64,000 bases of DNA from assembly GCA_001314865.1 (NCBI GenBank), contig LJZR01000022.1, forward strand, positions 1 to 64,000, read 5' to 3'. The position numbers and the translations under genes were made by a program. Positions within the stretch are counted from its first letter, which is position 1. Each line of letters begins with the position of its first letter. The notes beneath the pieces were generated by a model. That model was not told where the DNA came from. It worked only from the letters and a program-made list of their open reading frames with translations, and searched no databases. Below are positions 47,344 to 53,250 of the stretch, one piece after another. This stretch comes from Phormidesmis priestleyi Ana. GTDB taxonomy: Bacteria; Cyanobacteriota; Cyanobacteriia; Phormidesmidales; Phormidesmidaceae.

Positions 47344-48627
47344 ATGCTCGCCGATCTTGATAGCTCTCTTGATAGCTCAGCACGGCCCCTGGAAAGCCCA
47401 GAAGCCCTTCGGTCAAAAAATGGATCGATCAACGCTCATCTGCAAACTTACGATGTCGTGATTGTGGGTGGGGGCATTGTCGGGCTTACCTGCGCCTGTA
47501 GTTTACGAAACTCGGGGCTGCAAATAGCCGTGATTGAAGCGCAAACCGCCGAGCATGCAGCCGGACGGCAGCGGGCCTATGCGTTTTCTCCGGTATCGGC
47601 CAGCATCTTAAAAGGTTTGGGTCTGTGGGAGAGGGTAGGCCCCCAGCTGACGCACTTTCAGCGAGTCAAGCTATCAGATGCCGACTATCCCAAGGCGATT
47701 ACCTTTCGGCCCCAGGATGGCCGCAGCGATGCGGTGTACTACTCGGCTGAACATACCGTGCTGATGGCTGCGCTTCAGGAGGCCGTTCGCGCGGCGAAAA
47801 ATGTTGACTATTGGTGCGAGAGCCAAATCGTTGAGACTGAATCCGCCACAGCGCTGATTGTAGAACGACAGGGCCAGCAGTATCGTTTTCAAACCCAGCT
47901 TTTGATAGGGGCAGATGGGGCAAGGTCGTGGGTACGCAACCTCGCCAACATTAAAACCGTTGGCTGGAAATACTGGCAGTCTTGCATTACTGCCGTGCTT
48001 AAGCCTGAAAGGCCTCATTGCAACACGGCCTACGAAAAATTTTGGCCCAGTGGTCCTTTTGCCATTTTGCCCCTGCCGAACAATCACTGCCAAATCGTAT
48101 GGACTGCGCCTCACGAAGAAGCTGAAGCCCTACTAAACCTACCCGAAGCGGCGTTTTTGCAAGCGCTCCAAGCTCGGTACGGATCTGATATGGGCGCACT
48201 GACGCTAGTCAACAAACCCGCTATGTTTCCGGTACAGCTCATGCAAAGCCGGGAATACGTGCGAGCGGGCATTGCGCTCATTGGCGATGCTGCCCACTGC
48301 TGCCATCCCGTCGGTGGGCAGGGGCTTAACATGGGCATTCGTGATGCCACTGCCCTCGCCGAAGTGCTCCAGCAAGCCGCTAGCCGAGGAGAAAATATAG
48401 GCAGCCTGATTGTCCTTAAACGCTACCAACGATGGCGTAGGACCGAGAACTGGTTTACGCTGAGTCTTACCGATTTGCTCAATCGTTCTTTTTCCAACCG
48501 GTTTTTACCGCTGCTCATTTCGCGTCGTGCTGGCATTTGGATTCTCGACAGCGTTGGCCCGCTCAAGCGCTTAATCCTTCAGCTGATGACTGGCTTTTTC
48601 GGTAGGCTTCCTCTCAAAGCCCGGTAA
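47344..48627 (+). CDS. UbiH/COQ6-family FAD-dependent monooxygenase
   Basis: The 427-residue flavoprotein has a dinucleotide fold VVIVGGGIVGLTCACSL, the DG-type motif LIGADGARSWVR and the second FAD motif GIALIGDAAHCCHPVGGQGLNMGIRDA, all typical of aromatic-ring hydroxylases acting on quinone precursors. Cyanobacteria lack ubiquinone; their UbiH-like protein (slr1300 type) is thought to act in plastoquinone or related quinone metabolism. The first ~30 residues are extra. The next gene follows by 61 nt and may be co-transcribed. Confidence 0.88.
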   Translation: MLADLDSSLDSSARPLESPEALRSKNGSINAHLQTYDVVIVGGGIVGLTCACSLRNSGLQIAVIEAQTAEHAAGRQRAYAFSPVSASILKGLGLWERVGPQLTHFQRVKLSDADYPKAITFRPQDGRSDAVYYSAEHTVLMAALQEAVRAAKNVDYWCESQIVETESATALIVERQGQQYRFQTQLLIGADGARSWVRNLANIKTVGWKYWQSCITAVLKPERPHCNTAYEKFWPSGPFAILPLPNNHCQIVWTAPHEEAEALLNLPEAAFLQALQARYGSDMGALTLVNKPAMFPVQLMQSREYVRAGIALIGDAAHCCHPVGGQGLNMGIRDATALAEVLQQAASRGENIGSLIVLKRYQRWRRTENWFTLSLTDLLNRSFSNRFLPLLISRRAGIWILDSVGPLKRLILQLMTGFFGRLPLKAR

Positions 48628-48688: not shown

Positions 48689-49978
48689 ATGCCCACAACC
48701 CTTGCGCTGATTGCTCACGACAGCCAAAAAGACGCCCTTGCTGGCTTTGTAAGAGAGTACGAGGCTTTGCTGGTTGGCTATCAGCTGATCGCTACTTTCC
48801 AAACGGGTGATTACCTTCGTCAAGCTACTGACTTCCCCGTACAGCAGTTGCTTCCCGGCGAAATGGGGGGTGATTTGCAAATCGCTGCCCGCGTGGCTGA
48901 AGGCCAAATAGCTGCTGTTATTTTTCTGGCTGACGCCCTCAATGCTCCTTACTATCAGGCGGATATTTCGCCACTGCTGCGCGTGTGTCAGCTGCACAAT
49001 GTGCCGCTAGCAACCAACTTAGCCACTGCTCGGGCTGTGGTGCTGGCTTTAGCTAAAAGCCGGATTGCTCACCTCATTTTTAATCCGATTGCAGGTCAGG
49101 GCAATCCTAATCAAGATCTCAAGCTCATTCGCGCTATTTTAGAGCCCCAGATTCAGCTCAATGTTGTGATGACTGAGCCTGATGTGAGTCCGGTAGAACA
49201 GGCAAAGATGGCGATCGCATCTGGCGCTGATTTAATTATTGCCTCGGGCGGTGACGGTACTATTTCTGCTGTTGCCGAAGCCGTCATGCAAACTGGTATT
49301 CCTCTCGGTGTAATTCCACGCGGTACTGCCAATGCCTTTTCAGTGGCGCTGGGCATTCCTACTAACCTACGCGCTGCCTGCGAAACTATTTTAGCGGGCA
49401 CTACCCGTCAGGTGGATGTGGCTACCTGTAACGGCGCGCCTATGGTGCTGCTCGCAGGCATTGGCTTTGAAGCCGAAACCGTCGAACGCGCCAACCGAGA
49501 CATGAAAAATAGGTTTGGCTTTTTTGCCTATATCGTTGCTGGAATGCAGCAGCTTGCCGATCAGCAAGCCTTCGCCGCTGAACTAGAAATCAGCGGCCAA
49601 GTCAGCAAGTTTGACTGCGGCGCAATTACTGTCGCTAATGCCGCACCGCCTACCTCAGTGATGGCCCAAGGCTTTGGTGAAGTCGTTACCGATGATGGCC
49701 TGCTCGATATCACCATCGGCCTCACTCAACGCGAAGCTCAGGGGCTAGGCGCAAGGCTACAGGGAGTCGGCGCGATCGCTGAACTCTTTACCGCTGCGAT
49801 CGCCAAGCGCCCAACCCAAAACGAAAACATCCTCAGCTTACGCGCACCTAGTATTAAAGTCACCACCGACCCGCCGCAAAAAGTCGTCGTCGATGGTGAA
49901 ATTATTGGCACCACGCCCGTTGAGTTTGAATGCATCAATAAAGGGTTGACCCTCTTAGCCCCCCTCGCCAACGGATAA
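48689..49978 (+). CDS. Methylglyoxal-synthase-like domain fused to a DAGK/YegS-type lipid kinase
   Basis: The 429-residue protein has an MGS-like domain (1-125) and a diacylglycerol/sphingosine-kinase-like catalytic domain (about 130-425). In the first, His10, Asp62 (GGD), Asp82 and Asp92 match E. coli MgsA His19, Asp71, Asp91 and Asp101 with a constant offset of 9. The position of His98 is Tyr89 (NAPYYQAD instead of NAVPHDPD), so normal methylglyoxal synthase activity is doubtful. In the second, IFNPIAGQGNP and the nucleotide motif SGGDGTISAVAEA (GGDGT 187-191) and IPRGTANAFSVALGI are intact. It probably phosphorylates a lipid at the membrane, with the MGS-like part sensing a phosphorylated metabolite. 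Confidence 0.9.
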   Translation: MPTTLALIAHDSQKDALAGFVREYEALLVGYQLIATFQTGDYLRQATDFPVQQLLPGEMGGDLQIAARVAEGQIAAVIFLADALNAPYYQADISPLLRVCQLHNVPLATNLATARAVVLALAKSRIAHLIFNPIAGQGNPNQDLKLIRAILEPQIQLNVVMTEPDVSPVEQAKMAIASGADLIIASGGDGTISAVAEAVMQTGIPLGVIPRGTANAFSVALGIPTNLRAACETILAGTTRQVDVATCNGAPMVLLAGIGFEAETVERANRDMKNRFGFFAYIVAGMQQLADQQAFAAELEISGQVSKFDCGAITVANAAPPTSVMAQGFGEVVTDDGLLDITIGLTQREAQGLGARLQGVGAIAELFTAAIAKRPTQNENILSLRAPSIKVTTDPPQKVVVDGEIIGTTPVEFECINKGLTLLAPLANG

Positions 49979-50000
49979 ATAACCAGTCTGATAAATAACC

Positions 50001-50037
50001 AGACTGGTAAATAGCCAGACTGGTTATTTACCAGTCT
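50001..50037. terminator. Hairpin between the MGS-lipid-kinase gene and glgB
   Basis: A perfect 13-bp stem (50001-50013 with 50025-50037) encloses an 11-nt loop. It lies within four alternating copies of ccagactggt/accagtct (49982-50037), between converging genes. No T run follows, so it may terminate in both directions only weakly. Confidence 0.6.
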
Positions 50038-52636: not shown

Positions 52637-53062
52637 CTATCTAACGAAAGGGAGAATAGGTGTAACTGCGCGTCTGATTTGCAGTAAGAAAATTAGATAG
52701 CGAATGTCATTGCTCAGCGTTGGGGTGAGTGCGGGTGTCGCAAGCTCTGTCTGTAGCTGCGCATATTCAGCGGCGCTTAGGGGTTCGCCTGTTAGAGGCG
52801 ATCGCGCTGCTGTAATAATTTCTGTCCGCAAAATCTCTTCCGGAATTTCTTCAGGCGCTTCAGTAAAGGGTTCTTCAGCAAAGGGTTCTGGCGCTGTTTC
52901 TGGTGCTATTTTGGACGTGGTATCGGCGCTCTTTGGGGAGGTTTCCCCTAGTGGCAGCGGTGCTGCGATCGCACCCATACTATTCACCGAAACGAATATT
53001 CCACCAAATATTCCACCTAGCAGCACAACAATTCCCCTGTACGCCGTCAATCGTACGAGCAT
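52637..53062 (-). CDS. Small conserved cyanobacterial protein with N-terminal membrane/signal helix
   Basis: The ATG at 53062 is preceded by TTGAGGA seven bases upstream, the best ribosome site, and gives 141 residues; starts at 53119 or earlier run into the tetranucleotide repeat. The N-terminal helix (GIVVLLGGIFGGIFVSV) is a signal or anchor, followed by an acidic Pro/Glu linker. The conserved-looking end is LRTEIITAARSPLTGEPLSAAEY, RYLIFLLQIRRAVTPILPF, a pattern I associate with small proteins in many cyanobacteria; the function is unknown. Confidence 0.65.
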   Translation of the reverse strand: MLVRLTAYRGIVVLLGGIFGGIFVSVNSMGAIAAPLPLGETSPKSADTTSKIAPETAPEPFAEEPFTEAPEEIPEEILRTEIITAARSPLTGEPLSAAEYAQLQTELATPALTPTLSNDIRYLIFLLQIRRAVTPILPFVR

Positions 53063-53140
53063 AAGCACTTCCTCAAGACAGCTACCATAGTGTCCCATAA
53101 GATATCGGTAGAACTTCATTAGTATCCTAAATTTGTGGAT

Positions 53141-53232
53141 ACCGATTGACCGACCGATTGACTGAATGATTGACCGATCGATTGACTGACCGATCGATTG
53201 ACCGACCGACTGACCGACTGACTGACCAACCG
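53141..53232. repeat. Degenerate tetranucleotide repeat, 23 units
   Basis: Twenty-three consecutive 4-nt units fit A-(C/T)-(C/T)-G or a one-base variant (accg, attg, actg, atcg; aatg and acca once each) in unbroken phase. The array lies between two divergent genes and ends 18 nt before the ATG at 53251, so it occupies most of a shared promoter and leader region. Confidence 0.9.
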
Positions 53233-53250
53233 AAGGAATCACCTACAGCT

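Follow-up and report, generated by a model that had tools for sequence, protein, structure and literature searches.

Methylglyoxal synthase (MGS) joined to a kinase-like domain is already known from cyanobacteria. In Synechocystis sp. PCC 6803, sll0036 encodes an MGS motif together with a motif that its authors call a NAD-kinase without an ATP site, a fusion present in certain cyanobacteria, and the knock-out of this gene lowers methylglyoxal, giving in vivo support for methylglyoxal production (PMC11897720). In the chemistry of MGS, D71 acts as the base, H19 holds O3, and the phosphate is bound by K23, S65, and T45-G49; His98 reportedly matters more for conformation than for the chemistry itself (PMC7843640). 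A non-catalytic MGS-fold domain attached to another enzyme is known as well, from carbamoyl phosphate synthetase (CPS), where the allosteric L4 domain of CPS1 adopts an MGS-like fold (PMC4655335). The solved bacterial members of the YegS/BmrU/DgkB kinases measure about 300 aa and have no such domain.

We analyzed a window of 64,000 nucleotides from Phormidesmis priestleyi Ana, a stretch whose plus strand encodes, at positions 48689 to 49978 including the stop codon, a protein of 429 aa with an ATG start and no internal stops. Pfam matched MGS at residues 19 to 109 (43.6 bits, cut-off 24.1), DAGK_cat at residues 128 to 247 (101.7 bits), and YegS_C at residues 258 to 423 (43.0 bits). NCBIfam assigned the protein to the PRK00861 lipid kinases (441.9 bits, cut-off 293), and the cut-off of TIGR00147 was also exceeded (134.0 against 118.65). 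The fusion of an MGS domain to a lipid kinase, which a sequence-only reading of this DNA had proposed, was thus borne out on one open reading frame. The MGS-like domain (residues 1 to 123; 48689 to 49057, plus strand), matched by Pfam and in fold by Thermus MGS 1wo8, clearly descends from the methylglyoxal synthase family, since the protein passes the PRK05234 cut-off (123.2 bits against 84); it misses the cut-off of TIGR00160 (MGSA), with 135.8 bits against 146.9.

The kinase half (residues 126 to 429; 49064 to 49975, plus strand) contains the motifs GGDGT, PRGTANAF, DDGLLDI, and VDGE, and GGDGT and IPRGTANAF are both found intact, as had been claimed. An alignment to DgkB (2qv7) matched the GGDGT, GT(A/V)N, and VDGE motifs. 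No NAD kinase model of NCBIfam reached its cut-off, the best one giving 19.8 bits against 316, and Pfam NAD_kinase was passed at 33.7 (cut-off 25.5), far under the 101.7 bits of DAGK_cat. By these motifs and scores, the second half is an intact PRK00861-type (DgkB/YegS-like) lipid kinase. Its scores and models are like those of the PRK00861/YegS-BmrU/DgkB kinases, but here the kinase is preceded by an MGS-derived domain.

To number the active site, we aligned the protein to E. coli MgsA (L119), with which it shares its fold. The window protein keeps the equivalents of the catalytic H19 and D71 (H10 and D62) and of D91 and D101 (D82 and D92), but carries Tyr89 in place of the catalytic H98. This list had been given correctly from the sequence; beyond it, we found F37 for G46, Q38 for T47, P56 for S65, E58 for P67, and A83 for P92. 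The phosphate loop G46-G49 therefore reads F-Q-T-G (residues 37 to 40; 48797 to 48808), S65-G66-P67 reads P-G-E (residues 56 to 58; 48854 to 48862), and D91-D101 reads DALNAPYYQAD (residues 82 to 92; 48932 to 48964), all on the plus strand. Within the phosphate-binding set of K23, T45, T47, T48, S65, and G66, the first, second, fourth, and last residues are retained, while Gln replaces T47 and Pro replaces S65. The kinase fusion itself further separates the window protein from the E. coli enzyme.

The published primers for sll0036 match loci L004/L005 at 25/30 and 28-29/31 bases, which suggests that these loci probably come from the sll0036 lineage. Their proteins align full-length with the window protein and have the same two-domain build as Sll0036, but they keep H19, D71, D91, H98, and D101, whereas the window protein lacks H98. 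The second half is a lipid-kinase domain with GGDGT both in L004/L005 and in the window, in contrast to the NAD-kinase label given to Sll0036 (PMC11897720). In the five genomes of genus g8, the primer pattern did not recover sll0036 itself, so the residues compared here are those of L004/L005.

We then compared one genome from each of seven species of the window's genus (L034-L040); the protein of a Leptolyngbya foveolarum MAG (L120) is identical to that of L040 at all residues compared. The His98 position reads Y, S, C, A, A, C, and Y across the seven species. The proposal that the His-to-Tyr exchange is meaningful was therefore not borne out, and the expectation of Tyr throughout, put forward as a check, fails with four residue types in seven species. 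We reject Tyr as a selected replacement: Tyr89 is no fixed substitute, and the position is free to drift. Since a His98 equivalent is absent from all seven, a sequencing artefact is ruled out too. Could a neighboring His take over? None lies between residues 11 and 102 of the window protein, and H103 is no candidate because intact fusions carry a His there as well, alongside His98. A His stands one place earlier (E. coli 97) in L037 and L039 and two places earlier in L038, and that loop has no His in L034, L035, L036, and L040. A neighboring His as substitute, named beforehand as grounds for refutation, was therefore rejected.

The drift extends beyond this position. Columns 94 to 100 (window residues 85 to 91) average 4.0 residue types where the whole domain averages 2.2, making them the most variable seven-residue stretch of the MGS domain in the genus; in catalytically intact relatives the same columns are among the best conserved stretches (1.29 residue types, mean 1.86). 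Ser65 is Pro in all seven species, H19 is retained in six and replaced by Gln in L038, and D101 is Ser in L040.

Selection was measured with a codon model, because pairwise NG86 dN/dS was partly saturated. In the genus, the MGS half had an omega of 0.126 and the kinase half one of 0.057, compared with 0.066 and 0.069, respectively, in a set of intact fusions (f1). With this value, and with no stop or frameshift in the fusion gene in any of the seven species, constraint on the MGS half is relaxed, not lifted, and the decayed domain is under purifying selection. No other MgsA was found in any of the seven genomes, the single match in each being the fusion. Matches to the MGS superfamily in the window's genome were the fusion and two frames of 1094 and 535 aa, which we take, from their lengths, to be CarB and PurH.

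An AlphaFold2 model built from 27 aligned sequences had a mean pLDDT of 80. In the MGS half, values were mostly 82 to 95 and fell to 69 in the block of residues 81 to 90, which contains Tyr89. The modeled half superimposed on Thermus MGS 1wo8 with a Z score of 22.1 (1.8 Å over 121 residues), so the decayed domain is predicted to retain the MGS fold. The modeled kinase half matched sphingosine kinase 1 (Z 28.8) and DgkB (Z 27.7), that is, about 28 for lipid kinases against 15.8 for NAD kinases.

Many fusions of the same build were recovered from the cyanobacterial genomes searched, and GGDGT was kept in every fused kinase. Tabulating eleven active-site positions revealed a large set of fusions whose site is complete, alongside several sets that have lost it in part or altogether. 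We built a kinase-half tree of 86 fusions, of which 35 have H19, D71, and H98 and 51 do not, and placed the state of the catalytic triad on it. At least seven transitions between the intact and the lost state are required, and well-supported (starred) branches force every one of them; the drawn tree read under loss only gives eight losses. The tree itself gives no polarity; we assumed loss, because a complete site is common to standalone enzymes and repeated rebuilding is unlikely. On that assumption, the MGS site would have been lost about seven separate times among related fusions. The ratio of MGS to kinase amino-acid distances was 2.04 in the window's genus and 1.8 to 2.5 in five other decayed groups, compared with 0.67 to 1.10 in six intact groups; the exception among the decayed groups was g148, with D71E and H98N fixed and a ratio of 0.72. 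The fusions L056, L057, and L060, with fixed D71E and H98N and a slowly evolving MGS half, may have acquired a new conserved function. Three genomes (G170, G388, and G442) contain both an intact and a decayed fusion.

Decay outside the genus is selective: A18, G69, G70, D71, R107, C109, A117, N119, and A123 are kept in 80 to 98% of decayed copies, compared with 16 to 34% for K23, T45, T48, and G66 and none for H98. This pattern fits a retained fold or retained contacts rather than a retained phosphate pocket. The MGS-kinase fusion itself is already known (PMC11897720), and for the repeated decay of its MGS half we found no precedent in the literature searched, a search that was incomplete; papers on MGS pseudoenzymes or on the kinetics of H98Q were not found there either. 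These repeated losses beside a kinase that always stays intact run from a full enzyme to an erased site, and the origin of a pseudoenzyme can be followed and tested along this natural series.

We consider it reasonably probable that the MGS half of the window fusion is a pseudo-MGS, a folded domain retained for assembly or regulation on a lipid kinase that still works. The ancestor would have been a cyanobacterial bifunctional protein of the Sll0036 type, combining a working MGS with a DgkB/YegS-type lipid kinase, and the catalytic site of the MGS would have been lost by the time of the genus ancestor. The kinase would still be an ATP-dependent lipid kinase, probably acting on diacylglycerol, and the MGS half would survive as a folded pseudoenzyme with no need for its catalytic loops. 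Its most likely remaining task would be structural or allosteric: to keep the kinase assembled as an oligomer and possibly to tune how active it is. This explanation builds on the domain anatomy, the loss of the catalytic loops throughout the genus, the parallel losses elsewhere, the purifying selection, and the lack of a replacement MGS; from these we infer the kinase activity, its substrate, and the role left to the MGS half. The genus would then presumably lack MGS activity, and annotation from the MGS domain would credit it with a toxic-metabolite pathway that is probably absent. The conserved part would be an unexplored lipid kinase in a protein named for its other half, and the one paper that we found about such a fusion labels the second half an inactive NAD kinase (PMC11897720).

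A more specific role, as a ligand sensor, appears fairly unlikely. Here the old pocket would bind phosphate, dihydroxyacetone phosphate (DHAP), or a related anion and switch the lipid kinase, much as in CPS. A sensor of triose phosphate or phosphate is conceivable in this genus, since K14, T36, T39, G57, D62, and D82 do not vary among its seven species. Yet retention there of phosphate- and substrate-contact residues (0.86) is on a par with that of other positions conserved in intact copies (0.84), and the invariant pocket is therefore no positive sign of ligand binding. The His would not be needed for binding: among the structure matches, the E. coli mutants H98N and H98Q (1s89, 1s8a) are complexes with phosphoglycolic acid, and binding of a substrate analogue is therefore possible at a site without His98. 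Changes have also reached S65 and part of the phosphate loop, however, and K23, T45, T48, and G66 are rare in decayed copies outside the genus. The CPS precedent speaks for a sensor, as its L4 domain is allosteric and the modeled MGS half matches the MGS-like fold of E. coli CPS (1a9x) with a Z score of 14.5. In both, an MGS-fold domain, non-catalytic in CPS and presumably so here, is attached to an ATP-using enzyme (CarB or CPS1 L4 in the case of CPS), but in CPS the partner is unrelated, the domain is C-terminal with 18% identity, and the ligand is established. In other cyanobacteria, moreover, MGS-like domains are found linked to cNMP-binding or FHA-like partners. Of the sensor-from-enzyme proposal in the sequence-only reading, the former enzyme domain, the damaged site, and the intact lipid kinase stand, and the domain is still held by selection; the specific His-to-Tyr exchange does not stand. 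The broader version, in which decayed MGS domains bind phosphate, DHAP, or another metabolite to switch the lipid kinase, a conversion made several times independently from one ancestral bifunctional fusion, seems unlikely to us; if true, it would link carbon or phosphate status to membrane lipids.

It is quite improbable that the protein is still an MGS, weaker or differently tuned, that tolerates Tyr, Cys, Ser, or Ala at the His98 position. Several points nevertheless count against a pseudo-MGS. The base D71, H19 (in six of the seven species), D91, K23, T45, T48, and G66 are still present in the genus, so some activity could remain. T47Q also occurs in L004/L005, near sll0036 by primers, and S65P accompanies an intact His98 in L024, L049, and L050. 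Standalone MGS homologues of Clostridia have Ser or Tyr at His98 with most other site residues intact, and His98 is held not to be critical to the chemistry itself (PMC7843640); for both reasons, its loss alone is no proof of inactivity. The PRK05234 cut-off is met, and the fusion is the sole MGS candidate of the genus. Against continued catalysis stand the unconstrained loop 94 to 100, the loss of H19 and of D101 in single species, Pro at S65 throughout, an MGS-half omega twice that of the kinase half, and the missed TIGR00160 cut-off. Annotation as an inactive MGS would thus rest on the combined changes and the drift, and residual activity may persist. The standalone Clostridia proteins (L156, L159, L162, L171, L188, and L198) combine Ser or Tyr at His98 and Asn at D101 with an intact phosphate loop; homologues with Ser or Tyr and an intact loop come from Faecalibacterium and another Clostridia MAG, among others.

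That the MGS half is a passive remnant, headed for loss and doing nothing except leaving the kinase undisturbed, would suit its faster evolution and the occurrence of the same kinase type without it in the window's genome and relatives, but is very improbable given its omega, its uninterrupted frame in all seven species, and the 80 to 98% retention of GGD, R107, C109, A117, N119, and A123 in decayed copies across the phylum.

Directly upstream of the fusion gene lies a gene for a UbiH/COQ6-family FAD-dependent hydroxylase (47344 to 48627, plus strand; PRK07364, 581.5 bits, cut-off 487). Such a gene precedes the fusion in all seven species, with a spacing of about 60 bases in the window. Given the same neighbor and short spacing in each, co-transcription of the two genes is probable in this genus; none of the other loci examined showed the pairing. 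Inverted repeats that span and follow the stop codon of the fusion gene (49971 to 50037) may form a transcription terminator. A link to glycogen through the downstream glgB was rejected, as glgB is not conserved in the genus, being absent from the flanks of about 1.5 kb of L035, L037, L038, L039, and L040 and from within 4 kb in L120. In four loci of one genus (L016, L018, L019, and L020), an intact fusion directly follows a gene that by eye resembles glycogen phosphorylase. The fused kinase is not alone in the window's genome, which also encodes a standalone PRK00861 kinase, and several congeners have similar standalone kinases. On the minus strand of the window, a 201-aa frame (52637 to 53242) opens with GQS(V/I)GQS-type repeats, possibly not its real N terminus.

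Other arrangements of these domains were also encountered. A stop codon separates an intact-looking MGS half from the kinase half in L100 (342-1670), a locus of genome G387. Proteins with a fully intact MGS site occur in a family of small cyanobacterial genomes that we guess to be picocyanobacterial (L026, 1462-2412, and L027-L032); in L026 and L027, Pfam confirmed a cyclic-nucleotide-binding domain ahead of MGS, and three of these genomes also have an MGS-kinase fusion with an erased MGS site. In a genome of another family, which we guess to be Nostoc-like, L200 (552-2552) encodes a 666-aa protein with an N terminus that is FHA-like by eye and a C-terminal MGS-like domain in which D71 is Tyr and H98 is Gly; four similar loci were seen (L073 and L076-L078). 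Finally, L079 (1196-3268) joins a diacylglycerol-kinase-type domain and a PAP2 phosphatase domain in one open reading frame, which would place a lipid kinase and a possible opposing phosphatase in a single chain.
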